In this document: piece by piece, positions 1,004-17,347 of the stretch
Layout of the letters: every line of letters starts with the position of its first letter
Numbering within the stretch: position 1 is the stretch's first letter
DNA from: Lysobacteraceae bacterium
GTDB lineage: Bacteria > Pseudomonadota > Gammaproteobacteria > Xanthomonadales > Xanthomonadaceae
Length of the DNA stretch: 41,091 bases
NCBI GenBank assembly: GCA_027483045.1
Contig: JAIXVL010000257.1
Location: 1-41,091, forward strand
Direction: 5' to 3'
The notes under the pieces: model-generated
Told to the model about the DNA's origin: nothing
The model's database searches: none
Seen by the model: the letters and a program-made list of their open reading frames with translations, nothing else
Program-made: the position numbers and the translations under genes

Positions 1004-3130
1004 ATGAGCGCGCACGAAACGCCGAAGCACAGCATGGCGCAACGCGTGCGGACATTTGCCAATGGCATCGGCGCACGCCTACTGGCTTCTGTACTTGCAG
1101 CAAGCGCCGTCATCACCTTCGGCGTCGCCGGCATTGAGGTTTGGAGTAACTACCGCGCCGACCTTGCTGAACTTCAAGCCGACATTGATCGCATCGGTCG
1201 GGGCAGCCTCGACCCCATCGCGCTCAGTCTTTGGAATTACGACGACGCCCAGCTGCGCCTGCAGTTGGACGGCATTCGTCAACGCCCTTACGTGGCCGCC
1301 GTCGAAGTCCGCGAACGTGCCGCCGACGGAAGCGATGGTGCACTGCGCGCTCGTGTGGGCAGCGATGGCGTGGAAGGGCGGCGCATTGAGCGCCTGCCCC
1401 TGACCTACCGGCGCGACGGCGAGAACGCCGATTTGGGCACCCTTCTCATCGAAGTGGACGCCGCGGCGTTGCGCAAACGATCAGTGGAGCGCGCGTCCAG
1501 CATCTTGCTCACTCAGGGCGGCATCGTTCTTCTCATCATTCTGGTGCTGATGTTGATGGCGCGGCAGATCGTGACGCGTCACTTGTCTGCTTTAGCAACC
1601 GCCGCCGAGCGCTTCGACGTGCGCGACGAACTCGGCAGCTTTCGAATCCGACCACGCAGCAAGGGGCCCGGCGACGAAATCGACCGCGTGATCGACGCGC
1701 TGGAGAAGATGCGCTCCAGCTTGCAGACGGCCTACCGCGACTTGGCCGACGCCAACACCGAGCTGCAAGCCGACATTGCTGCGCGCCTACGTGCAGAAGC
1801 GGCAGCCGATCATCTGGCCAATCACGATGCGCTGACCAACCTGCCCAATCGCCGCTTGCTGTTTCAGCGTTTGGCCCATGAGCTGGCAGTGGCCGATCGC
1901 AGCGGCACGCAGGGCGCGATGATGTTTATCGACCTGGATCACTTCAAGACGCTCAATGATGCGCGCGGACACAGCATCGGAGATGCGGTGTTGATGGAAG
2001 TGGCTCGCCGCCTCCGCCAATGTCTCCGCGAAATTGATTTGGTGGCTCGCTTGGGCGGCGATGAATTCGTTGCTGTGCTTCCGATGCTTGGTGAATTGCG
2101 CGAACGCGCAACGTCGAATGCACTGGTTGCTGCAGAGAAGCTTCGCGCGGCAGTGGCCGAGCCAATTGTTGTACGCGGCGAAGTTTTCCGACTGAGCGCC
2201 AGCATTGGCGTGGCTTTGTTCCCCGACGATGCCACCAGCCCGGAGAATCTGATCAAGCACGCCGATACAGCGATGTATCAGGCAAAAACTGAGGGCCGCA
2301 ATTGCATCAGCTTCTTCCAACGTGATTTGTTGGAGGCCACTGAACAGCGCCATGCACTCGAGACTGATCTTCGCCAAGCCTTGGTCGAGAACACGCTCGA
2401 CGTGGCCTACCAGCCCTTGATTGACGGATTGGGAACGCTGCGCGGTGCCGAAGCCTTGGTGCGCTGGAACCACCCCACACGCGGCCCGGTCTCACCCGTG
2501 CAGTTCATTCCGCTGTGTGAAGAATCCGGGCTCATCATTCCGCTTGGTGACTGGGTGATGCGCCATGTGCTGCGCCAAGTACGCGACTGGCGGCGTGAGG
2601 GCGCCCTGCATCCGCAGCAGTACATCAGCGTGAACATCAGCCCACGACAATTCCGGCAGCAGGGCTTTGAAGACTGGTTGATTGGGCTGCTGCACGAGTT
2701 CGAAGTGCCGCCCTCGCAACTGGTTTTGGAAATCACCGAAGGCGTGGTGCTGGGCGATATCGATTCAGCCATTCTGCGCATGCAGTCGCTGCGTGCTCGC
2801 GGGGTGCGCTTCTACATCGACGACTTCGGCACCGGCTACTCGTCGATGGCCTATTTGAAGCGGCTGCCCGCTGACGGGCTGAAGATCGACAAGGGCTTCG
2901 TGCGCGATCTGGGCACCGACGCCAATGACGCAGCGATTGTCGATGCCATCCTGGCCATGGGCCGCCACTTCGGCCTGACGGTGGTCGCCGAGGGCGTGGA
3001 AACCGAAGATCAAGCGCGCTACCTGCTCGAGCGCAGCTGCGATCTGTTGCAGGGCTACCACTTGGGCCGTCCGGTGGAGGCCAAGCGCTTCGCCTCGGAT
3101 TTCCTGTCGCGCTCCATCAGGGCGGTGTAA
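1004..3130 (+). CDS. Membrane-anchored GGDEF-EAL protein (c-di-GMP turnover)
   Basis: 708 residues. A membrane segment at about 24-46 and another at about 165-188 enclose a periplasmic sensor of about 115 residues. That sensor contains SLWNYDDAQLR and a PYVAAVEV strand, a pattern common in periplasmic sensor domains of kinases and cyclases. A linker/coiled coil leads to a GGDEF domain (GGDEF at 351-355) with an intact inhibitory I-site RxxD five residues upstream (REID). The EAL domain (EAL at ~483) keeps the catalytic signatures: NISP, LEITEG, DDFGTG, LKIDKGF, AEGVE and LQGY. Both domains therefore look catalytically competent, and the net activity cannot be predicted. The stop codon lies inside the -35 element of the next gene's promoter. 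The start is uncertain: ATG 1004 has only a distant GGGGGAG, and ATG 1037 is an alternative. Confidence 0.93.
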   Translation: MSAHETPKHSMAQRVRTFANGIGARLLASVLAASAVITFGVAGIEVWSNYRADLAELQADIDRIGRGSLDPIALSLWNYDDAQLRLQLDGIRQRPYVAAVEVRERAADGSDGALRARVGSDGVEGRRIERLPLTYRRDGENADLGTLLIEVDAAALRKRSVERASSILLTQGGIVLLIILVLMLMARQIVTRHLSALATAAERFDVRDELGSFRIRPRSKGPGDEIDRVIDALEKMRSSLQTAYRDLADANTELQADIAARLRAEAAADHLANHDALTNLPNRRLLFQRLAHELAVADRSGTQGAMMFIDLDHFKTLNDARGHSIGDAVLMEVARRLRQCLREIDLVARLGGDEFVAVLPMLGELRERATSNALVAAEKLRAAVAEPIVVRGEVFRLSASIGVALFPDDATSPENLIKHADTAMYQAKTEGRNCISFFQRDLLEATEQRHALETDLRQALVENTLDVAYQPLIDGLGTLRGAEALVRWNHPTRGPVSPVQFIPLCEESGLIIPLGDWVMRHVLRQVRDWRREGALHPQQYISVNISPRQFRQQGFEDWLIGLLHEFEVPPSQLVLEITEGVVLGDIDSAILRMQSLRARGVRFYIDDFGTGYSSMAYLKRLPADGLKIDKGFVRDLGTDANDAAIVDAILAMGRHFGLTVVAEGVETEDQARYLLERSCDLLQGYHLGRPVEAKRFASDFLSRSIRAV

Positions 3131-3152
3131 CCGAAACGGGCCCGGCAACGAA
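3126..3152 (+). promoter_or_regulatory. ECF-type promoter of the sigma gene (TGTAACC-N16-CGAA)
   Basis: The -35-like TGTAACC is at 3126-3132, the spacer at 3133-3148 (16 bp) and the -10-like CGAA at 3149-3152. The same elements with the same spacing precede bufA2, bufA1 and the diguanylate cyclase gene. The form resembles the SigF-type promoters of Caulobacter (GTAACC/CGAA-like). The -35 element contains the stop codon of the preceding gene. Position ahead of the sigma gene implies autoregulation. A transcript would start near 3158-3160. Confidence 0.75.
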
Positions 3153-3272
3153 TAGGGGGTGTCCCCAACCGAGCCATGGCCCATGACTGCACTGCCGCTA
3201 GCGACGACTTGGCTGTCTGCCGAGGTTTTCGGCGACACTGCGGCACCTGTCCGAAGGATTGCATCAACCACC

Positions 3273-3857
3273 ATGCAAAGCGCTGCCGCCAAAGCGACGG
3301 AACCTTCGCTTGGACCGGATTTTCTGGCGGGTTTGGCCGGTGATAGCAAGCGCTACGAAATCGCATTGAAAGGCTGTGCCGTATTGATGCGGCGTTTCTT
3401 GGCAACGCGGCTGCAGCGCATGGCGCCGGCCATGGTGGCGGATGCGGAAGACCTGGTGCAGGAGTGTCTTTTGGCCCTGCATCTCAAGGCTCACACCTAC
3501 GATGCCGACCAACTGTTTGAGCCATGGATGTACGCCGTGGCGCGCTACAAGCTGATCGACTTGCTGCGCCGGCGCCAACCGGGGCGCGAACTGAGCTTGG
3601 ACCTGTTGTCCGAGACGCACGAATTTCCTGACGAAGAGGAACGCAGCGAGGCCACCTCTGCAGCTGACCTTGATGTCTTGCTGGCGCGCCTTCCCGAAAA
3701 GCAGCGCCGCCCGATTGAACTGGTGAAGCTCGAGGGGCGCTCGGTGATTGAGGCCGCAGCAACCACGGGCCTTTCCGTTTCTGCCGTGAAAATCGGCATC
3801 CACCGCGGGCTCAAGTCCCTCGCTAAACATCTTGCTGCGGAGGGAACCACCTCATGA
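3273..3857 (+). CDS. ECF-family RNA polymerase sigma factor (SigF-like, NrsF-paired)
   Basis: 194 residues from ATG 3273. Region 2 is recognisable from DAEDLVQECLLALHLK and PWMYAVARYKLIDLLRRR, and region 4 from LARLPEKQRRPIELVKLEG followed by a helix-turn-helix (IEAAATTGLSVSAVKIGIHR). Pairing with a DUF1109/NrsF-type membrane protein, overlapping by ATGA, identifies it as a SigF-like (ECF16-type) sigma released from a membrane anti-sigma factor. Starts upstream in frame are GTG 3159, which coincides with the predicted transcript start, and ATG 3183, which has no clear ribosome site; ATG 3273 has AAGGA about 14 bases upstream. The true N-terminus is therefore unresolved. Candidate targets, judged from the shared promoter motif, are its own gene, both bufferin operons and the cyclase at 15983-17284. 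Confidence 0.9.
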   Translation: MQSAAAKATEPSLGPDFLAGLAGDSKRYEIALKGCAVLMRRFLATRLQRMAPAMVADAEDLVQECLLALHLKAHTYDADQLFEPWMYAVARYKLIDLLRRRQPGRELSLDLLSETHEFPDEEERSEATSAADLDVLLARLPEKQRRPIELVKLEGRSVIEAAATTGLSVSAVKIGIHRGLKSLAKHLAAEGTTS

Positions 3858-4495
3858 AGACTGAAGAACTCATTGCCCTGCTTGCTCGACACCCGGAAGC
3901 CATGGCGCGACCGCGACCGCTTTTGGAATGGACCTTAGCCCTGTCCGTGGCCGTAGCCAGTGCATTCGCATTGATGCTTTTGCTGCTTGGTCCGCGTGCG
4001 GATTTGCAGTCGGTGATGGCACAGCCCATGTTCTGGCAGAAGCTCGGCATTCTTGGCTTGTTCGCCGCCAGCGGCTTGCTGTGGGCGCACCGCGCGGGCA
4101 TTCCTGGTCGCGAGGGCGGCTGGCAGGCCGGACTTCGTTGGGCAGGCCCGCTCTGGGCCGTGGCTGCCACTCTGGTAACCGTGTTGAGCGCGCCCGCCGG
4201 AGCGCGCGCCGAGCTGTTTTGGTCGCCGAGCGTGTTCTGGTGCTTGGGCATGATCCCTGTGCTGTCGGTGGTGCCCGCCATCGCGCTGATCGTTTTGCTG
4301 CAACGCGCGGCCCCAGCCGAGCCGGCTCGTGCCGCGCGAGCCGCGGGCATGGCCGCTGCTGGCGTGGGCGCCGTGGCCTATGCCTTCCATTGCCCCACCG
4401 ATCAGCCGGGCTATCTGCTGCTGGTATACGGCGCAGCCATTGCGTCCACCACGCTGATCACTCAATTCGTGGGCCAGCGTTTGCTGCGCTGGTAA
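3854..4495 (+). CDS. NrsF-like (DUF1109) membrane anti-sigma factor
   Basis: 213 residues, with an N-terminal cytoplasmic segment (MKTEELIALLARHPEAM) followed by about six hydrophobic helices. This is the usual size and layout of DUF1109 proteins, whose characterised member NrsF holds SigF inactive at the membrane in Caulobacter. Two cysteines sit in the conserved settings FWC-LGMIP (Cys130) and FHC-PTDQPGY (Cys180). A Cys pair of this kind is needed for metal/redox sensing in the Caulobacter protein. The start ATG overlaps the sigma stop codon (ATGA), so translation is probably coupled. Inference: metal stress inactivates this protein and frees the sigma factor. The alternative, an unrelated six-helix protein, is unlikely given the context. 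Confidence 0.88.
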   Translation: MKTEELIALLARHPEAMARPRPLLEWTLALSVAVASAFALMLLLLGPRADLQSVMAQPMFWQKLGILGLFAASGLLWAHRAGIPGREGGWQAGLRWAGPLWAVAATLVTVLSAPAGARAELFWSPSVFWCLGMIPVLSVVPAIALIVLLQRAAPAEPARAARAAGMAAAGVGAVAYAFHCPTDQPGYLLLVYGAAIASTTLITQFVGQRLLRW

Positions 4496-4647: not shown

Positions 4648-6681
4648 ATGTTGGAGCAATACGGAATTCAGATCGCCATCGCCTGCGCGGCGCTCGCGGT
4701 GCTTTACGGTGTTTTGGCATCGCGCTGGATCATGGCGCAGCCAGCCGGCAACGAACGCATGCAGCAGATTGCTGCGGCCATCCAAGAAGGTGCGGGAGCG
4801 TATCTGCGGCGGCAGTACATGAGTATTGCTGTCGTGGGCGTGGTGCTTTTTCTGGTGATCGGTTTTGTGCCCGCACTGGGCTGGCAAACGGCCATCGGCT
4901 TTGCGATCGGCGCGATTCTTTCAGGTCTGGCCGGCTTTATTGGCATGTTCGTGTCGGTGCGCGCCAATGTGCGCACAACGCAGGCAGCCACCAAGAGCTT
5001 GAATGCGGCACTCGATGTGAGCTTCCGCGGCGGCGCCATCACCGGCATGTTGGTGGTGGGCTTGGGCCTCTTGGGCGTGGCCGGCTATTTCTGGTTCGTG
5101 GGCGGCGCGGTGAATGACGAAGCCGCGATCAAGGCCGCGCTGCAGCCGATGATTGGCTTGGCGTTCGGTAGCTCGCTGATCTCGATCTTCGCGCGATTGG
5201 GCGGCGGCATCTTCACCAAGGGCGCTGATGTGGGCGCCGATTTGGTGGGCAAGGTGGAAGCCGGCATCCCCGAGGATGACCCGCGCAACCCAGCGGTGAT
5301 CGCCGATAACGTGGGCGACAACGTGGACGACTGCGCGGGCATGGCGGCTGACCTGTTCGAAACCTATGCGGTCACCATCATCGCGGCCATGCTGATTGCC
5401 GGAATCATGTTCAGCACCTATGGCTTTGGCGGCGTCATGTACCCGCTGATTCTGGGCGCGGTGTCGATCGTGGCCTCCATCGTCGGCACCTTCTTCGTGA
5501 AGGTGGGCAGCGACGGCAAGATCATGAAGGCGCGGTACAAGGGACTGATCGTCGCAGGCCTGTTGTCGGCGGTGGGCTTCTGGTTCGTCACCGACGCGAT
5601 GATCGCGGTGAACACCGTGCAGATCTTCCTGTGTGCGATGGTGGGCTTGGTGCTGACGGCTGCTTTGGTCGTAATCACCGAGTACTACACCGCCACCGAA
5701 TACGGCCCCGTGCAGCAGATTGCTAAGGCTTCGGAAACTGGCCACGGCACCAACGTGATTGCAGGCTTGGCGGTGTCGATGAAGTCGACCGCAGCGCCGG
5801 TGCTTGTCGTCGCCTTGGCCATCTACACCTGCTACGCGCTCGCCGGATTGATGGGCATTGCGGTGGCGGCAACGGCCATGCTCTCGATGGCCGGCGTGAT
5901 CGTGGCACTCGACGCCTACGGCCCCATCACCGACAACGCGGGCGGCATCGCCGAGATGTCGGGGCTGGACAAGGAAATCCGCAAGACCACCGATGCACTC
6001 GACGCCGTGGGCAACACCACCAAGGCCGTCACCAAGGGCTATGCGATTGGTTCGGCAGGCCTTGCCGCGCTCGTGCTGTTTGCCGATTACGCACACAAGC
6101 TGGATGAGAAGTTTGGTCAGGACGTCATCGACTTCTCCATCGACAAGCCGGAAGTGCTGATCGGCCTGCTGATCGGCGGCTTGATTCCCTACTTGTTCGG
6201 CGCGTACGCCATGCAGGCCGTGGGTCGCGCAGCCGGTGCGGTGGTGGAAGAAGTGCGCCGTCAGTTCCGCGAGATCCCCGGCATCATGGAAGGCACCGGC
6301 AAGCCTCAGTACGACAAGGCGGTGGACCTGCTGACCAAGTCGGCGATCCGCGAAATGATCGTGCCGTCGATGCTGCCGCTGTTCATCCCGATCATCGTCG
6401 GCCTCGTGCTCGGCCCGGCGGCACTCGGCGGCTTGCTGATGGGCACCATCGTGACCGGCCTGTTCGTGGCGATCTCGATGTGCACCGGCGGCGGCGCGTG
6501 GGACAACGCCAAGAAGTACATCGAAGAAGGCCATCACGGCGGCAAGGGCTCTGAGGCCCACAAAGCCGCAGTAACCGGCGACACCGTGGGTGATCCCTAC
6601 AAGGACACCGCCGGCCCGGCCATCAACCCGCTGATCAAGATCATCAACATCGTGGCCTTGCTGCTGGTGCCGCTGCTCTGA
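4648..6681 (+). CDS. hppA: Membrane-bound H+-translocating inorganic pyrophosphatase, K+-independent type
   Basis: 677 residues with about 16 membrane segments. It couples PPi hydrolysis to proton export. The PPi/Mg site is seen in [19 protein letters not shown] and ADNVGDNV. The motif GNTTKAV has Lys at the position that separates K+-independent H+ pumps (Lys) from K+-dependent H+ or Na+ pumps (Ala), so a K+-independent H+ pump is predicted. ATG 4648 was chosen because GGGGGAGG lies 6-13 bases upstream; the in-frame GTG 4633 lacks this. Oddity: residue 227 is Asp (GAC, 5326-5328) in [10 protein letters not shown], where family members normally have Gly (GDNVGDCAGM). The gene stands alone between two terminators and is functionally linked to pfp upstream and ppa at 23.2 kb. 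Confidence 0.95.
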
Positions 6682-6713
6682 TCTGAGGACTCGGCGTCAT
6701 CTGCACAAAAAGG

Positions 6714-6744
6714 CGAAGCCCCGGGAGACCGGGGCTTCGTTTTT
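6714..6744 (+). terminator. Rho-independent terminator after hppA
   Basis: A perfect 11-bp stem CGAAGCCCCGG / CCGGGGCTTCG with a GAGA tetraloop is followed by TTTTT (6740-6744). It lies just downstream of the hppA stop and ahead of the convergent hydrolase gene. Confidence 0.92.
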
Positions 6745-6757
6745 CATGGAGCCAGCA

Positions 6758-8194
6758 TCAGCGCGGTCGGCGCGAGAAGTCGACGACACGATCCTGATCG
6801 TCGATGCGGAATCGGTACATGTATCGCTCAGTGCCCGTGTCGAGAAGTGCGTCAACGGCGCGCACGGAACGATCGTCGAGTAGATCCATCGCCGCATCGG
6901 ATAGCGCGTCGCCGCCGATGATCGTGACGGACTTCGCCGCGCTCAAGTGCCTGGCCACGCGCAGGCGGTCGCTGGCTTCGCGGACACTCCCCGACGCGAT
7001 GGCGGCCATCTCGGGCGCCATGTGCTCACTTGAGCCATAGCTTGCCCAGGCGGAGAGCACGTCGCGGAGCGAGTCGGCGAGGCCTGCATCCTCGCCGCTC
7101 GGTTGCACTGTGGCCTTCGGACGCTGCGCAAGCGAGGTGTCAACCAGCCCGGCAATCGCGTGCGAGAGCGCCTCGGGCTGCGCATGCGCCGCGTTGGCCA
7201 GCACGAACACCGCCAACTTCTGCGACGGGTAGCGTGTGACCGTGGCGCGGAAGCCCTGCCACGAGCCTCCGTGTTGGATCACCGGCTGTCCGCGCTGTTC
7301 GCCGAAACCCCAACCGAAGCCATAAGGGACGCTGGCGCCGCTGCTCAGGCGCACTGGAGTCCACCAATCCGTGTAGTGCGCGTCGCTCAGCAGAACGCGC
7401 TGATTTAGGGCGCGCTCCCACGCGCCGAGGTCGCGAAGCGAAAAGTAGAGCGCGCCGTCCGCAAGGCGGTTGAAGCTGGGCGCGATCCAATCCTGATTGA
7501 CGATGGCGCCGTCGTCGTCGAGCTGATACCCCGCGGCGCGATGCGCAACCAGATCCTTCTCGCTGATGACTTTCGTCGTCCGCATGCCCAAGGGCTTGAA
7601 GATCTTCTCGGCCTGGTAGTCGCTCCAGTGCATGCCGGAGAGCTTCGAGGTCAGCAGGCCAAGGACCAGATACCCGCTGTTCGAATAGCTCCACTGCGAG
7701 CCGGGCTCGAAGTCGAGCGGGAGCGTCTTCATCACCGCAAGGAGCTCGGCCTCCGTGTAGTCCTTGCGGTAGTCGAATTCGTCGCCGTAGTCGCGCAGGC
7801 CCGAGGTATGGGTAAGAAGGTGCCGGATGGTGATGCGGTGCCAGCTCGCCGGCCCATCGGGGAAGTGACGTGAGAGACGGTCGTCAAGGCTGAGCTTGCC
7901 CTCCTCCGCGAGGAGCAGGATGCCGGCGGCAGTGAACTGCTTGGCCGTCGACCCGGATTGGAAGATCGTCTCGGGCGTGACCGGCACCCGGTGCTCAAGG
8001 TTGGCGTACCCATAGCCCTGCTCCTTGAGCACCTTGCCGTCGCGCATCACCAGCACCGCAATGCCCGGTGTCTTGCTCGACGCCAGTTCCGCTTTGACGA
8101 GATCGTCGATCGCGTCTGCGCTCGCTGCGCTCGCCATGACAATCGCCAGCAACGCGACGATGGCGCGGAAAGATCGGGGCTTACTGCGACTCAT
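6758..8194 (-). CDS. Secreted serine hydrolase, beta-lactamase/penicillin-binding fold (class C-like)
   Basis: 478 residues from the ATG at 8194, which has GGGAG about six bases upstream; an in-frame ATG at 8233 is less likely. A signal peptide (MSRSKPRS then a hydrophobic core ending ASADA) directs export. The catalytic SxxK is SGSTAKQF, the YxN motif is YSNSGY, and HGGSW is the third (KTG-equivalent) motif. HLLTHTSGL is typical of the Beta-lactamase family PF00144. About 130 extra C-terminal residues (from ~350) do not match the core and may be a family-specific domain. The substrate cannot be named: esterase, D-amino-peptidase and beta-lactamase activities all occur in this fold. It converges on hppA and follows the FAD gene by 78 bp. 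Confidence 0.88.
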   Translation of the reverse strand: MSRSKPRSFRAIVALLAIVMASAASADAIDDLVKAELASSKTPGIAVLVMRDGKVLKEQGYGYANLEHRVPVTPETIFQSGSTAKQFTAAGILLLAEEGKLSLDDRLSRHFPDGPASWHRITIRHLLTHTSGLRDYGDEFDYRKDYTEAELLAVMKTLPLDFEPGSQWSYSNSGYLVLGLLTSKLSGMHWSDYQAEKIFKPLGMRTTKVISEKDLVAHRAAGYQLDDDGAIVNQDWIAPSFNRLADGALYFSLRDLGAWERALNQRVLLSDAHYTDWWTPVRLSSGASVPYGFGWGFGEQRGQPVIQHGGSWQGFRATVTRYPSQKLAVFVLANAAHAQPEALSHAIAGLVDTSLAQRPKATVQPSGEDAGLADSLRDVLSAWASYGSSEHMAPEMAAIASGSVREASDRLRVARHLSAAKSVTIIGGDALSDAAMDLLDDRSVRAVDALLDTGTERYMYRFRIDDQDRVVDFSRRPR

Positions 8195-10046: not shown

Positions 10047-10073
10047 TGTAACCGCTGTGGTGCTGTGTACGTA
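10047..10073 (+). promoter_or_regulatory. ECF-type promoter of the bufA2 operon (TGTAACC-N16-CGTA)
   Basis: TGTAACC at 10047-10053, a 16-bp spacer and CGTA at 10070-10073. Elements and spacing match the promoter of the ECF sigma gene at 3126-3152. The predicted transcript starts near 10080, giving a leader of about 104 nt before bufA2. Confidence 0.75.
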
Positions 10074-10183
10074 AGGTGAGGGCAGCACGACGAAGGGCCC
10101 AACTCCTGCCCCCCGTGTGCGCCGAGGTTCGAGCCCGCCCGGGTCGCGCCGCCGCCCAATCCCAAGTCGAAAAGGAAACTGCC

Positions 10184-10465
10184 ATGAAGTCCATGCTCTC
10201 CGTCGCCACCTTCGCTGCTGCTTTCGCCACCTCGTTCGCTGCCGCCGCCGCAGAAGCACCGGCTGGCAGCAGCGGTGCTGCCATTGCCGCTGGCGATACC
10301 GTTCACTGTTACGGCATCACCGCTTGCAAAGGCCAGAACGATTGCAAGACCACTGAACACGCCTGCAAGGGCAATGCCGAGTGCAAGGGCCAGGGCTTCA
10401 AGGCCACGACCGCCAAAGCCTGCCTGGACCAGAGCGGCACCATCGGCGACCTCGCGGCGCGCTGA
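10184..10465 (+). CDS. bufA2: Bufferin-2-type RiPP metallophore precursor (BufA2)
   Basis: 93 residues. An N-terminal signal peptide (to about residue 23, ending AAAAA-E) is followed by a Cys-rich core with six Cys (42, 48, 54, 61, 67, 80) in the spaced pattern VHCYG..ACKG..DCK..ACKG..ECKGQGF. This is the signature of the BufA2 family of periplasmic copper-chelating peptides, whose cysteines are converted to thiooxazoles by an MNIO enzyme. Retention of the signal peptide means the modified peptide is exported to the periplasm. ATG 10184 has AAGGA seven bases upstream, and an open extension to 10076 starts within the predicted promoter region. bufB2 follows 55 bp downstream, after a strong hairpin. 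The number and positions of modified Cys cannot be read from sequence. Confidence 0.9.
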
Positions 10466-10480
10466 TTTCTGCTGGGCTCG

Positions 10481-10500
10481 GCCGACCCCTCGGGGTCGGC
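10481..10500 (+). promoter_or_regulatory. Intercistronic hairpin between bufA2 and bufB2
   Basis: A perfect 8-bp stem GCCGACCC / GGGTCGGC with a CTCG tetraloop lies 15 bases after the bufA2 stop and is not followed by a T-tract. It could be an attenuator or a 3' stabiliser that makes precursor mRNA more abundant than enzyme mRNA. That role is inferred from position and structure. Confidence 0.55.
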
Positions 10501-10520
10501 TGATGCCTGAGTAAAAGACC

Positions 10521-11387
10521 ATGCTGATCCACCCGCACTCGCCACTGCTTGCACCGTCACCCGGCTTCGGCCTTGGTCTGCGGCCGCAGCATTACGCTGA
10601 TTTCGCCGAGTCCAAGCGCGACGTCGATTGGCTGGAGATCATCTCCGAGAATTTCATGGTCGATGGCGGAAAGCCGCTGCAGTGGCTTGACCGTATTCGA
10701 GCCGATTACCCAATGGCGATGCATGGTGTGACGCTCTCGATTGGCGGCAGTGATCCGCTCGACCGCGATTACCTGCAACGTCTGAAGTCCCTCGCGCAGC
10801 GTGTCGATCCGCTCTGGGTCTCGGACCATGTGTGCTGGGGCGGCCACGCTGGCCTGCATGCCCATGACCTGCTGCCCCTGCCCTACACCGATGAAGCAGT
10901 AAAGCATGTCGCTGCGCGCGTTCGCGAAGTGCAGGACATTCTTGGACGCCGCCTCGTTCTGGAGAATGTTTCGAGCTACGTGGAGTTCCGCGAGTCCGAA
11001 ATGTCGGAGTGGGAGTTCTTGGACGCGCTGTGTCGCGAAGCCGATTGCCTTCTGCTGCTCGACATCAACAACATTCACGTCAGTGCAGTGAACCACGGCT
11101 TCGATCCCATCGCCTTCATCGAAGGCGTGCCGCTGGATCGCGTGCAGCAAGTGCACCTTGCGGGCCACACCGTTCGCGATGGCTACTTGATCGATACCCA
11201 TGATGCGCCGGTCGTTGATCCGGTCTGGGCCCTTTATCGCCGCTTTGTTGAGTGCGCGGGTGCTCGGGCCACGATGATTGAGCGCGACGACCATATTCCA
11301 CCGCTGGCGGAACTCATCGAAGAACTCTCGATTGCACGCGCCATCGCTGCCGAGGTGAGCACTGAACAGATGGAGGCTGCTGCGTGA
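10521..11387 (+). CDS. bufB2: MNIO (DUF692) bufferin maturase BufB2
   Basis: 288 residues, a TIM-barrel multinuclear non-haem iron oxidase that oxidises Cys of the precursor in the cytoplasm. Likely iron ligands are visible: Glu43 (ISENFM), His68 (MHGVTLS), Asp102/His103 (VSDHVCW), Glu148 (LENVSSY), Asp181, Asn184 and His186 (DINNIHVS), and His212/His216 (HLAGH). Length and motif order are typical of the family. The stop overlaps the bufC2 start (GTGA), indicating coupled translation of the enzyme and its partner. About 280 residues also describe the paralogue at 13836-14684, and the two share the same motifs with clear divergence between them. Substrate specificity for the adjacent BufA2 is inferred from synteny. 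Confidence 0.94.
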
Positions 11388-12166
11388 GCGCGCTGGCCGC
11401 CCTTCAAGCCACGTTCTTGAGAACGGTTATCCAAGGCAGTGAGCTTGCCGCGAGCGACATCCGCGAGACACCTCAATTCAACGCCAGCCAACGTCTTGCG
11501 GTTTACGCCAATGCCTATCGCCGCCGCTTGGTCGAAGCCCTCGCATCGGTGTACGAGCGCGCGCAGGCCGTGCTTGGCGAAGACGACTTTGACACGCTGG
11601 CCTTGGCCTATGTGGAGGCGCATGCGCCTACCGATCGTGCCTTGCGCTGGTATGGCACGGACTTTCCGCAGTGGCTGCGCTCACAACGGCAACACCTTGA
11701 GCACGCCGCTGACGTGGCAATGATCGATGGCGCGCTGCGTCGCGCCTTCGATGCTGCCGATGCCACACCCGTTGAACGAGAGGCGCTATTGGCTTTATCG
11801 CCGGAGCAGTGGGCGTCGCTGCGTTTCCATTGGGCGCCTGCGCTCTCCATCGACCAGGTGGATCCTGCCGCGATTGCGCTGTGGCGCGACCAAAGCACCC
11901 TAGGCTCCGATTTGAATTGCGCCACCACTGAGCCGGTTCCGGTGGCCTTTTGGCGGCGCGATGGACAAACGTTTTTTCGCAGCTTGGCGGCAGCAGAAGC
12001 GCTATTGATGACGCGCTTACGCGCAGGACAGTCGCTGGCCGAGGCCTGCCTCAGCGACGACAATGCGCTTCCGATGGAAGTCGCCGTCCCGGCACTGATT
12101 CAATGGGTCGATGACGCGTGGATCGCTGGCCTCGAATGCATGCCACCGATTGAGTCGGGCAGGTGA
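11384..12166 (+). CDS. bufC2: DUF2063 partner protein of the bufferin maturase (BufC2)
   Basis: 260 residues from GTG 11384, with GGAG about eight bases upstream. The N-terminal ~95 residues ([12 protein letters not shown]...[29 protein letters not shown]) fit DUF2063, once described as a putative DNA-binding domain. In MNIO systems it is now thought to bind the precursor leader and present it to the DUF692 enzyme. The C-terminal half ([20 protein letters not shown]...) is the usual second domain. It overlaps bufB2 by 4 bp and the next gene by 4 bp (GTGA at both junctions), so the three cistrons form a tight translational unit. Confidence 0.9.
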
Positions 12167-12591
12167 ATCGCTTCTTCGCCTCGGCCCTGCATCGTCTGGG
12201 CAATGCGCCTTTGCCCGTCGTCATTGCCTGTCTCGCGCTGTGCTTCAGCGTTTTCGGCATCGCGAGCATCAATCTTTTCCTCATGCTGCGCGCGAACCTT
12301 TTGTTCATCGGCGAGCATGGTTGGGATGCACTGAAGATTGGCGGCGCCGCCCAGTTGGGCATGCTCGCCTTAAGTGCCTATGTGGGCATGGCGTTCTACG
12401 CGCTGGCCAAGTGGTTTGAGCACCGCATTATTGATCGCATTGCGGCGGCGGGCCCAACGCACGTGAACGCGACTGCCGCACCGATCGAGCGAACGAGGAC
12501 GACGAGGCGTAACCGACTGCACGCGCCACGGCTTTCGCGGGCACGCCTTGATCGAGAAGTCGCGCCGCAAGATCGAAACGCACCGCACTGA
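12163..12591 (+). CDS. Small membrane protein ending the bufA2 operon
   Basis: 142 residues from GTG 12163, which overlaps the bufC2 stop. There are two clear membrane helices (VVIACLALCFSVFGIASINLF and MLALSAYVGMAFYALAKW) up to about residue 97. I do not recognise the family. Position in the operon suggests a membrane partner for periplasmic bufferin, comparable to DoxX in the second cluster. The last ~45 residues (from HVNATAAP) are Arg-rich and low in complexity, and they are encoded antisense to the end of the convergent AraC gene (overlap 12428-12591). That tail looks like a read-through extension: the ancestral stop may have been lost. Confidence 0.7.
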   Translation: MNRFFASALHRLGNAPLPVVIACLALCFSVFGIASINLFLMLRANLLFIGEHGWDALKIGGAAQLGMLALSAYVGMAFYALAKWFEHRIIDRIAAAGPTHVNATAAPIERTRTTRRNRLHAPRLSRARLDREVAPQDRNAPH

Positions 12592-13294
12592 GAAACTGCT
12601 GAGGCGTGGCTCCGGCAACGCGCGTAAACGTTGCCGCGAAAGCAGAGCGCGACATACCGGCAAGACGGGCCAGCGAAGCGATCGTCCACCGCGCACCCGG
12701 GCGCTCGAGGAAGCCCGTAATCGCCCGAGCCAAGCGTGCGTCGGTGAGCACAGGCAGCATGCTGGGCGCCAAGTGCCCCTCGCGCAAAGCAACACGGATC
12801 ACTGCCAAAATGACGGAACGCAAATGAAGCGCCATGGCCTCGTCTTGTCCAGGCAGGCCGCTCGCAGCCTCTGCAGCCAGTAAACCACTCAGTGTCGCGA
12901 GGCTTGGGTGCGGCTTCAGATCAAGATAGAGCGGATTGGGAAGGGCGCGCACGAGGGCGGCAGACACGGCATCCACCGGCATTACATAGCAACACAGGAG
13001 CCGGCACCCGCCAAAGCGGCTTGCCTCCAGCCGATGCGGATTGCTGCTCGGAAACGCAACCAATGCCGGAGCGCAAACCTCACGCGATATTCCTGTCTGC
13101 GCGTCACTGACCAGCAACTGACCTTCAAGAACGAAGTGGAACTGCGCCGGAACGTTGATCCGATCGTAGTCAGTGTCTCCGCAAAAGCGCCCGGAGAAGA
13201 ACACTCGGGTGCGGAAGTTCAACAGTTTGAGTAAACGAGATAGAGCGTCCGCCGGGTCAGCGGGAGGATTTCGAAGGGGGACAGGCGAAAGCAT
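12428..13294 (-). CDS. AraC-family transcriptional regulator with cupin sensor domain
   Basis: 288 residues. The N-terminal cupin-like sensor (residues ~30-170, with GRFCGDTDYDR and FHFVLEGQLLV...FPSSNPHRL) is of the AraC_binding/Cupin_6 type. The C-terminal double helix-turn-helix contains WTIASLARLAGMSRSAFAATFTRVAG and AVARAVGYASSSSFARSVRQ. It sits convergent to the bufA2 operon and divergent from bufA1, so it could act on either. The upstream region also carries the bufA1 promoter and an inverted repeat. Several Cys and His lie in the sensor (GGCRLLCCYVM), but metal sensing is only a guess. Its 3' end overlaps the preceding membrane-protein gene by 164 bp. Confidence 0.88.
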   Translation of the reverse strand: MLSPVPLRNPPADPADALSRLLKLLNFRTRVFFSGRFCGDTDYDRINVPAQFHFVLEGQLLVSDAQTGISREVCAPALVAFPSSNPHRLEASRFGGCRLLCCYVMPVDAVSAALVRALPNPLYLDLKPHPSLATLSGLLAAEAASGLPGQDEAMALHLRSVILAVIRVALREGHLAPSMLPVLTDARLARAITGFLERPGARWTIASLARLAGMSRSAFAATFTRVAGATPQQFLSAVRFDLAARLLDQGVPAKAVARAVGYASSSSFARSVRQSRSRALGPPPQCDQ

Positions 13295-13409
13295 CGTTTC
13301 CTTTGCGCTAGTTCACAGGTGTTTGGTTCATCGGTACTGGAGCTCGGCGGTTGCGAGCATGAGGTACTGCCGTGACCAGCATCGTCAGATTTGCCAATCC
13401 GAAACGCCC

Positions 13410-13433
13410 AAAAGTCGCCGAATGCAGACTTTT
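13410..13433. repeat. Inverted repeat AAAAGTC-N10-GACTTTT upstream of bufA1
   Basis: Perfect 7-bp arms (13410-13416 and 13427-13433) with a 10-bp spacer, ending 12 bp before the bufA1 -35 element. The arm centres are 17 bp apart, roughly one and a half helical turns. It could be an activator/repressor operator, possibly of the neighbouring AraC protein. No second copy was noticed in front of bufA2. Confidence 0.5.
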
Positions 13434-13445
13434 CGTCCAAGGAGC

Positions 13446-13471
13446 GTAACCGAGGCCTTTCGCCCTGCGTA
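13446..13471 (+). promoter_or_regulatory. ECF-type promoter of the bufA1 operon (GTAACC-N16-CGTA)
   Basis: GTAACC at 13446-13451, a 16-bp spacer and CGTA at 13468-13471, identical in elements and spacing to the bufA2 promoter. The preceding base is C where the other three copies have T. The leader to ATG 13510 is about 30 nt, much shorter than that of bufA2. Confidence 0.75.
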
Positions 13472-13509
13472 CGGTGAACGTTGTCCCACCCGCCCAAAAG
13501 GAAACCCTC

Positions 13510-13809
13510 ATGGATCGTCGTTCATTCAGCGCCACCTTTGCTCTCACGCTTGCCAGCGCGATCGCGCTTGGCAGCCTTGCCTCGCCTGCTTCGGCTGAAG
13601 ACGCGCCAGCCAAGCCCTCCAAAGAAAAGTGCTATGGCGTTTCCAAGGCGGGCGAAAACGACTGCGCTGCGGGCCCCGGCACCAGCTGTGCAGGCACGTC
13701 GAAAGTGGACTACCAGGGCAATGCCTGGAAGCTTGTTCCCGCGGGTACCTGCGTGGCCATCGAGACCCCCAAGGGCAAGGGCTCGCTAGCGCCGATTGCT
13801 GGGCGCTAA
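13510..13809 (+). CDS. bufA1: Bufferin-1-type (DUF2282) RiPP metallophore precursor (BufA1)
   Basis: 99 residues. A signal peptide ([18 protein letters not shown]...ASA, cleavage near residue 29) precedes the DUF2282 core [18 protein letters not shown], with Cys41, 52, 60 and 81 (DC-AA, SC-AGTS and AGTC-VA). DUF2282 proteins are the bufferin-1/Gig-type periplasmic peptides that are matured by MNIO enzymes to thiooxazole-containing copper chelators. ATG 13510 has AAGGA at 13498-13502, in nearly the same sequence context as bufA2 (AAAAGGAAA). An in-frame extension to 13474 begins at the expected transcript start and is unlikely. bufB1 follows 26 bp downstream. Confidence 0.92.
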
Positions 13810-13824
13810 TCGCAAACCTTGCGA
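13810..13824 (+). promoter_or_regulatory. Hairpin in the bufA1-bufB1 junction
   Basis: The arms TCGCAA (13810-13815) and TTGCGA (13819-13824) leave a 3-nt loop, and the 3' arm runs into the GAGG that serves as the bufB1 ribosome site. It could lower enzyme translation relative to precursor, in parallel with the stronger hairpin in the bufA2-bufB2 gap. The stem is short, so this is tentative. Confidence 0.35.
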
Positions 13825-13835
13825 GGTCGTCGCCC

Positions 13836-14684
13836 ATGCCCGCCCACGTGCTGCCCGAGCAAGCCGGCATCGGCTTCAAGCCCGCGCATCTGGCAGCCTT
13901 ATTGGACGAGGGCGGCGATCTCGGCTTCATCGAAGTCCATGCTGAAAACTACATGGGCGCAGGCGGGCCAGTGCATGCGCGGCTTGATGCTGCGCGTGCG
14001 CGCTTTCCGCTCTCGGTACACGGTGTTGGCCTGTCCATTGGTGGTGCAGAGCCGCTCGATTCGCGCCATCTACAGCGCTTGTGCGGCGTGGTCGAGCGCT
14101 TCGAGCCTGCCAGCGTGTCGGAGCATTTGGCATGGTCCAGCCATGGCGGCGTTTTCTTCAACGACTTGCTGCCCATCGCTTACGACGAGCCGACCCTGGC
14201 GCGTGTTGTTGACCACGTGCAACACGTTCAAGAACGGCTGCGCCGTCGCATCCTGATCGAGAACCCATCAACTTACTTCGCACTTGCAGGCTCCGTGCTG
14301 GAGGAAGTGGATTTCCTGAGCGAACTCGCTGCGCGCTGCGGCTGCGGCCTGTTGCTCGACTTAAACAATCTGGTGGTGAGCGCAGGCAATCGCGGCGAAT
14401 CGCCGTGGACGGCCTTAGATCGCTTTCCCCTTCATGCCGTTGGCGAAGTGCATCTCGCAGGCCATAGCGAACAAAGCCTCGGCGGAAAGACACTACGCAT
14501 CGACGACCACGGCTCTGCCGTAGGGCAAGACGTTTGGTCACTGTATGCCGCGCTTCTACAGCGCACCGGCGCCCTGCCCACCTTGGTGGAATGGGACACC
14601 GACGTGCCGGAGTTCAACACGCTCGCGACTGAAGCTCGGCGTGCACGCGACGTGCTGCAAAGCCTCTCGGCCAGGGCAGCCTGA
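13836..14684 (+). CDS. bufB1: MNIO (DUF692) bufferin maturase BufB1
   Basis: 282 residues from ATG 13836; an open extension upstream overlaps bufA1 in another frame and is not used. The iron-binding motifs of the MNIO fold are present in order: VHAENYM, SVHGVGLS, VSEHLAW, IENPSTY, DLNNLVVSAGNRG and VHLAGH. The His found after the DINN motif of BufB2 is Val here, and SDH is replaced by SEH, so the two maturases in the window belong to different subgroups. This matches their different precursors. It probably oxidises Cys of BufA1 in the cytoplasm. bufC1 starts 2 bp after its stop. Confidence 0.94.
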   Translation: MPAHVLPEQAGIGFKPAHLAALLDEGGDLGFIEVHAENYMGAGGPVHARLDAARARFPLSVHGVGLSIGGAEPLDSRHLQRLCGVVERFEPASVSEHLAWSSHGGVFFNDLLPIAYDEPTLARVVDHVQHVQERLRRRILIENPSTYFALAGSVLEEVDFLSELAARCGCGLLLDLNNLVVSAGNRGESPWTALDRFPLHAVGEVHLAGHSEQSLGGKTLRIDDHGSAVGQDVWSLYAALLQRTGALPTLVEWDTDVPEFNTLATEARRARDVLQSLSARAA

Positions 14685-14686
14685 GC

Positions 14687-15481
14687 ATGGATCACACGCA
14701 GCAATCCATGGCCGCAGCCCTGCTCTTGGATCCAGGTCAGCACCCCGGCGCTCTATTGCTGGCCACAACACCCACAGCTGAAGCCGAGCAGCGCTTCAAC
14801 GTTCACCGCAACACCGTGGTGCGCAGCCTGATCACCGCGCTTGCCGAGGGATTCCCATCGGTCCATCGCTTGGTAGGCCAAGATTTCTTCGAGGCCATGG
14901 CCATCGATGCGGTGCGCTCGTCACCGCCGAGGCATCCCGTTTTGCTGGCGTATGGCGCCGAGTTTCCTGCGTTCATCGAACGCTTCGAGCCCTGTGCGTC
15001 CTTGCCCTATCTCGCCGATGTGGCACGCCTCGATGGTTTGCGCCGGCGCGCGTATCACGCCGCTGATGTTCTGTCCTTGGAAGCAGCGCACTTCGCGGGC
15101 CTTGATGCGGAAACCGCTGCGCGATGCCGAATTGTTTGGCATCCCTCGGTCGCCATCTTCGCTTCTGCATTTCCCGCAAGAAGCATTTGGGCTGCACAGA
15201 ACGACCCAGCCGCCACCGCGCGCATCGATTGGCAGGCGGAGGCCAGCCTAGTGTTTCGCCAAGGCCAAGCGGTGGCTGTGATTCCACTGGATGCTGACTT
15301 GCAGGCCCTGCTGGTGGCTTGTCAAAGCGGCGCGCCTCTTGCCGAGGTACTCAGCGAGCCCGAACGCGCCGAACCCTTTTCACGAGCACTTGCCTTGGGC
15401 CTGTTGGTCGAGGACGTGCATAACTCACACGACGATCTGTTTGACGCGTTTCTTTCCCCGCTCCCCAACGCTAGGCAATAA
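14687..15481 (+). CDS. bufC1: DUF2063 partner protein of the bufferin maturase (BufC1)
   Basis: 264 residues. The N-terminal DUF2063 region (MAAALLLDPGQHP...RFNVHRNTVVRSLITALAEGFPSVHRLVG) is followed by the LPYLADVARLDGLRRRAYHAAD segment, equivalent to [20 protein letters not shown] in BufC2. It is expected to bind the precursor leader and assist BufB1. It lies 2 bp after bufB1 and 9 bp before doxX, in the same order as the gig/bufferin operons of other proteobacteria. Confidence 0.9.
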   Translation: MDHTQQSMAAALLLDPGQHPGALLLATTPTAEAEQRFNVHRNTVVRSLITALAEGFPSVHRLVGQDFFEAMAIDAVRSSPPRHPVLLAYGAEFPAFIERFEPCASLPYLADVARLDGLRRRAYHAADVLSLEAAHFAGLDAETAARCRIVWHPSVAIFASAFPARSIWAAQNDPAATARIDWQAEASLVFRQGQAVAVIPLDADLQALLVACQSGAPLAEVLSEPERAEPFSRALALGLLVEDVHNSHDDLFDAFLSPLPNARQ

Positions 15482-15490
15482 AGGATTTCT

Positions 15491-15952
15491 ATGTCAGACG
15501 CTTCGCTTTCCGTCCTTGGCCGCATGCTGGCACCGGTGTACCGCTTGCTTGGACGCCTGCCAGAGACTGCGCTTCTCTTCGCTGCTCGCGTGTTCCCCGC
15601 GGCGATCTTTTTTCAGTCCGGCCAAACCAAGGTCGATGGCTTCATGCTGAACGAGAACGCGCTCTTTCTGTTCCAAGAGGAATACAAGATTCCGCTGTTG
15701 TCTCCGGAATTCGCTGCCACGATGGCTGCGATCAGTGAGCATGTGTTTCCCGTGCTCTTGATGCTCGGCCTAGCAACGCGACTCTCGGCGCTGGCACTCA
15801 TCGGCATGACCGCGACCATCCAGATCTTCGTTTACCCGGACGCGTGGCCGACCCATGGCGTTTGGGCCGTGGCCTTGCTGCTTGTGGCGTCGCGCGGCCC
15901 TGGAGCTTGGTCGCTGGATCGTCTGTTCGGCATTGAAGCGAAAGGCCACTAA
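15491..15952 (+). CDS. DoxX-family membrane protein of the bufferin-1 operon
   Basis: 153 residues with four hydrophobic segments (ALLFAARVFPAAIFFQSGQTKV, ...MAAISEHVFPVLLMLGLATRLSALALI..., WAVALLLVASRGP). The early FQSGQTKVDGF motif and EHVFPVLLMLGL are typical of DoxX proteins. The ribosome site AAAGGA is 7-8 bases upstream of ATG 15491. DoxX is the usual last gene of DUF2282-DUF692-DUF2063 operons; its biochemical role there is not established, and redox supply to maturation or handling of peptide in the membrane are suggestions only. Confidence 0.9.
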   Translation: MSDASLSVLGRMLAPVYRLLGRLPETALLFAARVFPAAIFFQSGQTKVDGFMLNENALFLFQEEYKIPLLSPEFAATMAAISEHVFPVLLMLGLATRLSALALIGMTATIQIFVYPDAWPTHGVWAVALLLVASRGPGAWSLDRLFGIEAKGH

Positions 15953-15972: not shown

Positions 15973-15997
15973 CAAAGAGCCCTTAGCGGGCTCTTTG
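15973..15997. terminator. Bidirectional hairpin terminator between doxX and the cyclase gene
   Basis: A perfect 10-bp stem CAAAGAGCCC / GGGCTCTTTG with a 5-nt loop, where the loop (15983-15987) contains the stop codon of the minus-strand cyclase. T-richness is modest on both sides. Placement at a convergent junction supports a shared terminator. Confidence 0.7.
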
Positions 15998-17284
15998 TGC
16001 GTTCTGCTTTTCGGCATACATGCGCGAGTCGGCGAGCGTGAGCCATTCCTTTGCATCGCCTGCGGATTCGGAAAGACGCGCAACGCCTGCGCTGATGCCG
16101 GCGCCGGGAAACTCCGCGGCCAAGGTTTTGTCCAGCCTCGACAGACGCGCACCCCAGCCTTCAAGAAAGCGCTTGGCGTCACTACTGACGAGCAAGGCAA
16201 ATTCATCGCCACCTAAGCGAAACAACAAGTCGTCGCTGCGGCTCATTTCGTTGAGAAGCGCCGCAGTGCGTGCGATCAGCTGATCGCCGCGCGCATGGCC
16301 TTCGGTGTCGTTGATCCGTTTCAGTCCATCGACATCAAAGATGACCAAAGTCGCGTCAGTCAGCGCGCCGCTTTGGTGTAGCCGCCCCACTCGCGCCATC
16401 GCCGCGTCAAAACCCCGTCGATTACCAAGCCCGGTGAGCGCATCGCGGTTTGCATCGTCTCGAGCCGCATCGAGATCCTTGTAAGCACGAAGCAATTCGA
16501 GGCGCGGCCCAATGAACGCAGAGAACACGCGAATCAGGGCCTCCGCCTCGCGGCGTTGCCGATCCGAGACGACCTCATCCGACATCAGAAACACATGACC
16601 CACAGCACGACCACGCACTCGGTAGACCATGCCCACATAGCTCTCAGCGCCCAACGAGGTCAACGCAGGCTCCTCGCAGAAACGCTCGCCCATGCGATCA
16701 AGAAACACGGCGTCCTCACTGCGAACCACGGAGTGGCAGGGCGTGCCGATGACGTCATAGCGCCAACCATCGAGCAAGGAGACCTCGCGATCCACGAAGG
16801 AAAGAACCTCGACTTCGTCTGCGGAGCCGAGGAACTCCGTAATGGCCGCCCAACGCCAGCCCGAGGTTTCCAAAGCGATTCGCAAGGCCGAATGCATGAT
16901 GTCTGCCGGTTCACCACTCCTCAGAGTGGCGCTGACCAAGCGGTGCATGGCCAACTCCGCCAATGAAGCAATCCCATGGTTCGCTTGCGCCACAACAATG
17001 CTCCCTACGGTAACCGGCAACACCGCCACATCGACCTCATCGTGCCGAATGTGTCCAAACACGGGGCCTTCAGAACCGCCGAGGGGAACCGGCCTGGCCA
17101 TTCTGGCGAGAGTATCCGCGGGCAAAGGCCGCAACTCCAAACTCTGCGGATTAGACCAAACCGTCGCCATGTCTCGGTCCAGAAGGGTCATTGAGCGAGG
17201 CAGCGCTTCGAGCATCAGTTCAAAAGAGTGGTTTGCAATGCGCGCATCCCACCGGGAGCAACTGGAGGCGAAGGACGTAGTCAT
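15983..17284 (-). CDS. Cytoplasmic PAS-like/GAF-GGDEF diguanylate cyclase
   Basis: 433 residues from the ATG at 17284, which has GGAG eight bases upstream; the ATG at 17290 is too close to it. There is no membrane segment. A PAS-like N-terminus (FELMLEALPRSMTLLDRDMATVWSNP) is followed by a GAF-like sensor (residues ~120-265, LRIALETSGWRWAAITEFLG...) and a GGDEF domain with FRLGGDEFALL (GGDEF at ~358). Its I-site RSDD lies five residues upstream, so it should make c-di-GMP with product inhibition. No EAL domain is present. The gene converges on the bufferin-1 operon and is preceded by the same ECF-type promoter motif (17321-17347), suggesting co-induction with both bufferin pathways. Confidence 0.93.
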   Translation of the reverse strand: MTTSFASSCSRWDARIANHSFELMLEALPRSMTLLDRDMATVWSNPQSLELRPLPADTLARMARPVPLGGSEGPVFGHIRHDEVDVAVLPVTVGSIVVAQANHGIASLAELAMHRLVSATLRSGEPADIMHSALRIALETSGWRWAAITEFLGSADEVEVLSFVDREVSLLDGWRYDVIGTPCHSVVRSEDAVFLDRMGERFCEEPALTSLGAESYVGMVYRVRGRAVGHVFLMSDEVVSDRQRREAEALIRVFSAFIGPRLELLRAYKDLDAARDDANRDALTGLGNRRGFDAAMARVGRLHQSGALTDATLVIFDVDGLKRINDTEGHARGDQLIARTAALLNEMSRSDDLLFRLGGDEFALLVSSDAKRFLEGWGARLSRLDKTLAAEFPGAGISAGVARLSESAGDAKEWLTLADSRMYAEKQNAQRAR

Positions 17285-17320
17285 GTGCATTACTCCGAAG
17301 TTGGGGGCGCGTGAGGGTCA

Positions 17321-17347
17321 TTCGCGGGCTGGAGTCAGGGGGTTACA
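17321..17347 (-). promoter_or_regulatory. ECF-type promoter of the diguanylate cyclase gene (TGTAACC-N16-CGAA, minus strand)
   Basis: On the minus strand TGTAACC is at 17347-17341, the 16-bp spacer at 17340-17325 and CGAA at 17324-17321. This equals the sigma-gene promoter in both elements and in spacing. The -35 element overlaps the last codons of the EamA gene. The predicted start near 17313 leaves a leader of about 30 nt before ATG 17284. Confidence 0.65.

Follow-up and report, generated by a model that had tools for sequence, protein, structure and literature searches.

A compact SigF-NrsF locus encoding both bufferin types in a Lysobacteraceae bacterium

Bufferins are a widespread and recently recognised copper defence, made by an unusual family of iron enzymes, the MNIOs (DUF692). 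We analysed a 41,091-nucleotide stretch of DNA (the window; contig JAIXVL010000257.1 of assembly GCA_027483045.1, a Silanimonas-like Lysobacteraceae bacterium), in which bufferin operons of both known types, Buf2 (10184-12591) and Buf1 (13510-15952), lie side by side downstream of the gene pair sigF-nrsF (3159-4495). We read this locus as a compact copper-buffering regulon under SigF and NrsF that would drive both bufferins, with an enzyme preference that is probably not an absolute barrier, and we give this reading a probability of about 0.85. The locus is a tidy, compact composite SigF-NrsF bufferin locus, and the system itself was already known. A sequence-only reading had reported two complete, adjacent operons of different bufferin type, and our coordinates and profile matches agree with it; the sigF-nrsF pair in the same window was missing from that reading.

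The sigma factor switch and its promoters

We find a gene for a SigF-like extracytoplasmic function (ECF) sigma factor at 3159-3857 on the plus strand (Pfam Sigma70_r2 and Sigma70_r4_2), the true start of which is probably a later ATG. Its product is 62-74% identical to the counterparts in syntenic Silanimonas loci. It adjoins the gene of an NrsF anti-sigma factor (3854-4495, plus strand; Pfam NrsF, 138 bits), the sole NrsF of the genome, in which Cys130 and Cys180 match Cys131 and Cys181 of the Caulobacter protein (PMC3511200). The window thus has what marks a SigF-NrsF regulon, an ECF sigma factor adjoining an NrsF with two conserved cysteines.

SigF-type promoters on the plus strand precede sigF and both bufferin operons. 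The one before sigF (3127-3152) reads GTAACC-N16-CGAA; its -35 element shares bases with the stop codon of the EAL gene upstream, and the promoter has equivalents at the loci of Silanimonas sp. KatS3mg127 (L073) and of LE19-338.1E (L074). Those before the Buf2 operon (10048-10073) and the Buf1 operon (13446-13471) are both exact GTAACC-N16-CGTA, one base off, and stand 111 bp and 38 bp from the start codons of bufA2 and bufA1. The Buf2 site is kept in L073, L074 and L075, and the Buf1 site in L073; KatS3mg127 has a SigF-type site before all three units, and LE19-338.1E before sigF and the Buf2 operon. Allowing one mismatch, we saw four sites against 0.52 expected, and none of 100 shuffles reached four. 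Since the two operons have a SigF-type promoter in common and sigF-nrsF lies in the locus, one switch very probably induces both together, as the sequence-only reading had suggested. We infer this from Caulobacter, where GTAACC-N16-CGAA promoters put operons of both types under SigF (PMC3511200), both bufferin operons are Cu-induced in every condition tested and the sigF mutant is Cu-sensitive (PMC8224329).

Some points weigh against this interpretation. Genome-wide, the motif is not enriched (10 sites versus 25 for the reversed control); our case is therefore built on position and conservation, and we claim no wider regulon. The -10 element of the bufferin promoters is CGTA, versus CGAA in Caulobacter. 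Moreover, a gene for an AraC-type regulator (Cupin_6 and HTH_18; 12428-13294, minus strand) lies between the operons, divergent from bufA1 with a promoter region in between, and could add or replace control here. This layout would favour separate control, of Buf1 by the AraC-type regulator and of Buf2 by SigF. We consider such a division quite improbable, because the SigF-type site 38 bp before bufA1 is equally exact, and because the AraC gene of KatS3mg127 has decayed to a fragment, yet the Buf1 operon is still there with its SigF-type site. Judging from that fragment, the locus appears to vary in araC and to conserve its SigF sites.

On the minus strand, a GAF-GGDEF gene (15983-17290) has a further SigF-type site, GTAACC-N16-CGAA, 31 bp ahead of it (17321-17346), which could be due to chance.

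Two operons and the ancestry of their maturases

The first gene of the Buf2 operon, bufA2 (10184-10465, plus strand), encodes a precursor with six cysteines (positions 42, 48, 54, 61, 67 and 80) that scores 91.2 bits with the NCBIfam BufA2 model (NF050166; cut-off 60). On the same strand follow bufB2 (10521-11387), an MNIO bufferin maturase (NF050167, MNIO_BufB, 384.9 bits; cut-off 310) placed in the Buf2 clade by our tree, and bufC2 (11384-12166), a DUF2063 partner protein (Pfam PF09836, E 9.6e-21). A precursor of the Buf2 family, a Buf2-clade MNIO with intact iron ligands and a DUF2063 partner are thus all present. The 'membrane gene' that the sequence-only reading added to this operon does exist as an open reading frame (ORF; 12163-12591, plus strand) with apparent membrane segments, but it is an orphan. 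It has no family match, its 3' end overlaps araC, it is a remnant in L073, and 148 other genomes of the family gave weak matches only (E 6e-4 or worse). We rejected it as a bufferin gene for lack of a strong homologue in those genomes, and its membership of the Buf2 operon is doubtful.

The Buf1 operon, also on the plus strand, starts with bufA1 (13510-13809), the gene of a DUF2282 precursor (Pfam PF10048, 88.9 bits) with four conserved cysteines (positions 41, 52, 60 and 81). Downstream lie bufB1 (13836-14684), an MNIO bufferin maturase of the Buf1 clade by the tree (NF050167, 352.6 bits; cut-off 310), bufC1 (14687-15481), a DUF2063 partner protein (Pfam PF09836), and the gene of a DoxX membrane protein (15491-15952; Pfam PF07681). 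Cysteine positions and family profiles bear out the earlier description of a six-Cys BufA2 and a four-Cys DUF2282 precursor. Both products have an N-terminal segment that, by eye only, is signal-peptide-like. As had been described, promoter type, gene order and ribosome-site context are common to the operons, with AAAAGGAAAC four bases upstream of the ATG in bufA1 and bufA2 alike. We typed precursors by their Cys-spacing patterns, because iterated profiles merged the two families and were rejected for separating them.

Comparing the two sets, we find 37-38% identity between BufB1 and BufB2, 30% between the precursors and 29% between the DUF2063 partners. We labelled 85 MNIOs by the precursor encoded next to them and built a first tree. 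Every one of the 28 enzymes with a Buf1 partner groups in a single clade (SH-aLRT 99), the 43 with a Buf2 partner all fall across the split from it, and the EGKCG-type enzymes branch outside. A second tree that included alphaproteobacterial members gave the same Buf1/Buf2 split. The window has one MNIO in each clade, each matching its precursor type, which is the outcome that the sequence-only reading had hoped for from a DUF692 phylogeny. On this evidence, the two maturases are old paralogues in separate, well-supported clades. The identical gene order and the similar ribosome-site context would fit one bufferin operon having been duplicated recently. However, the identities above are low for all three gene pairs, and each MNIO is closer to same-type enzymes in other bacteria. 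The maturase tree and the 37-38% identity of the MNIOs refute such a duplication, to which we assign next to no probability.

The sequence-only reading had also claimed that the maturases differ at putative ligand positions (SDH versus SEH; DINNIH versus DLNNLV). The strings were read correctly, but they do not fall on metal ligands. TglH has nine iron ligands, His71, His107, Glu151, Asp184, Asn187, His216, Asp229, His231 and Glu258 (PMC10880893); the equivalents of all nine, like the catalytic Asp, are the same in BufB1, in BufB2 and in 148 of 148 labelled enzymes compared, and we rejected ligand differences on that ground. The residue before His107 is D in 107 of 108 Buf2 and E in 26 of 28 Buf1 enzymes of the first enzyme set. 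Alphaproteobacterial Buf1 maturases can have D there, so S[DE]H was rejected as a universal type marker. The ending of DINNIH/DLNNLV does not track enzyme type. The site that does so immediately follows the catalytic Asp (Phe250 in FonB), with Asp in 105 of 108 Buf2-type and Phe in 11 of 12 EGKCG-type enzymes; Buf1-type enzymes are variable there, mostly G/T/Q/N/A. In the window, BufB2 has Asp257 at this site and BufB1 has Thr. The same residue pattern has been described, together with a role of the site in selectivity around the target Cys (PMC12668002).

Exchangeability of the two pathways

From the tandem operons, the sequence-only reading had proposed two parallel, non-interchangeable pathways. 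The parallel part holds, as the operons are complete, of different type and have maturases in distinct clades. Strict non-interchangeability is doubtful as a general rule, because we find genomes in which a single Buf2-lineage MNIO accompanies both precursors, or Buf1 precursors only. Three complete genomes (G641, G662 and G763) encode both precursors and one MNIO genome-wide, which belongs to the Buf2 lineage and lies in the Buf2 operon. At their loci (L170, L169 and L172, respectively), the Buf1 unit is divergent and consists of bufA1-doxX, with no MNIO of its own. From the matching plasmid layouts described below, we guess that these genomes are sphingomonad-like. In a further genome, G503 (L189, L190), the sole MNIO is nested in the Buf2 clade and there are two DUF2282 precursors; a BufA2 gene was not found, even at E 0.1. 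In these genomes, it would seem that either the Buf2-lineage enzyme modifies Buf1 precursors or those precursors stay unmodified.

How separate the two pathways are can be weighed on these data. If each maturase processed its own precursor only, one would point to the distinct maturase clades, the class-specific residues at the substrate site and the retention of both sets side by side in several lineages. The genomes with one Buf2-lineage MNIO for both precursors, and G503 with such an enzyme and no BufA2 gene, speak against this as a rule, as does the finding that FonB variants at the selectivity site still yield product (PMC12668002); we regard so strict a separation as unlikely. Slightly less unlikely, though still doubtful to us, is that the systems are redundant and kept mainly for dosage, with overlapping specificity, so that either enzyme pair processes either precursor. 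Homology of the precursors, with a weak BufA1 match to the BufA2 model (22 bits) and a merging of the two families under iterated searches, speaks for it, and genomes that have one maturase alongside both kinds of precursor would be accommodated as well. Yet wherever both enzymes are kept, each stays in its own precursor's clade across a large divergence (28/28 and 43/43 labelled), and the partner proteins are merely 29% identical. We give about even odds to the proposal that Buf2-lineage maturases can process Buf1 (DUF2282) precursors. The locus in the window, with its two enzymes, would then represent one form of a composite bufferin locus under SigF; its sphingomonad-like forms would have lost BufB1-BufC1 or never possessed them, and one genome would have a Buf2-lineage enzyme that serves Buf1 precursors alone.

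Related loci and the proposed copper response

Among the closest known systems is the SigF regulon of Caulobacter vibrioides/crescentus, which comprises sigF-nrsF with CC3254-3257 (Buf1) and CC2907-2905 (Buf2). Gene content and promoter class are alike, both bufferin types are under one ECF sigma factor with NrsF, and the Caulobacter regulon is Cu-induced (PMC3511200, PMC8224329). Apart from the -10 element, the difference lies in the layout: by gene numbers, a long distance separates the sigF-Buf1 cluster of Caulobacter from its Buf2 operon, whereas the window has everything within 13 kb. The KatS3mg127 locus has the same series of genes, EAL, sigF, nrsF, H+-pyrophosphatase, bufA2-B2-C2 and bufA1-B1-C1-doxX, with three SigF-type promoters; unlike in the window, its araC and membrane ORF are remnants. 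The AraC fragment there spans 11764-11991 (query residues 68-143), and the preceding membrane ORF is apparently truncated.

The sequence-only reading had treated the tandem arrangement as special. We find that it recurs, in reverse order in other genomes of the order Xanthomonadales and divergently in Asticcacaulis. In twelve further loci (L154-L165), 11 of them in genomes from a different family of the order and one in a genome from the window's own family, nrsF-sigF is divergent from a bufA1-B1-C1-doxX operon, after which comes bufA2-B2-C2; each locus carries three SigF-type promoters. In L155, L156 and L158, NrsF homologues about 30% identical to the window's NrsF flank sigF on both sides. 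On plasmid pASTEX01 of Asticcacaulis excentricus (L188), both complete operons are likewise adjacent and accompanied by sigF and nrsF; they are divergent and stand back to back, and the Buf2 operon ends in sigF-nrsF-nrsF, three genes that come directly after bufC2 (5562-7421). A published survey placed sigma factor and NrsF genes in Buf1, not Buf2, clusters (PMC12452194). Composite clusters do occur, as the loci described here show, first and foremost that of Asticcacaulis. Plasmids Sphingomonas pR1a and Novosphingobium pABRDHK22 (L186, L187) also encode the two kinds of precursor, separated by sigF and DUF1109/NrsF, but each locus has only one MNIO and one DUF2063 protein, and nothing but doxX comes after the DUF2282 gene. 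Among 398 genomes sampled evenly from the phylum, BufA2 occurs in at least 26, DUF2282 in at least 102 and, by our count of the rows listed, both in at least 14, all lower bounds owing to score thresholds. At least five of the 14 genomes with both precursors, the window's included, have them within 5 kb.

By analogy with Caulobacter and with characterised bufferins, we infer the following route from metal signal to copper chelation in the window's organism. Excess copper, or a related metal stress, would act through the membrane anti-sigma factor NrsF, which has both conserved cysteines, to free the ECF sigma factor, as in Caulobacter. Because GTAACC-N16-CG[AT]A promoters precede sigF, bufA2-B2-C2 and bufA1-B1-C1-doxX, this one switch should fire all three units. 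In the cytoplasm, each MNIO-DUF2063 pair would turn the core cysteines of its own precursor into thiooxazoles (about -4 Da each), and Sec would export the modified product to chelate copper in the periplasm, as for characterised bufferins. The maturases may be adapted to the residues around the target Cys, with Asp257 of BufB2 facing Cys-Lys substrates and Thr at that site in BufB1. This adaptation is probably a preference and not an absolute barrier.

The most useful part of the analysis is the comparative evidence on specificity, as the relatives suggest that the maturases are less strictly separate than they look. Loci with both types under one switch, together with their single-enzyme relatives, are ready sets for asking what determines the choice of Cys by an MNIO, and they also bear on whether a single enzyme can act on two families of substrate.

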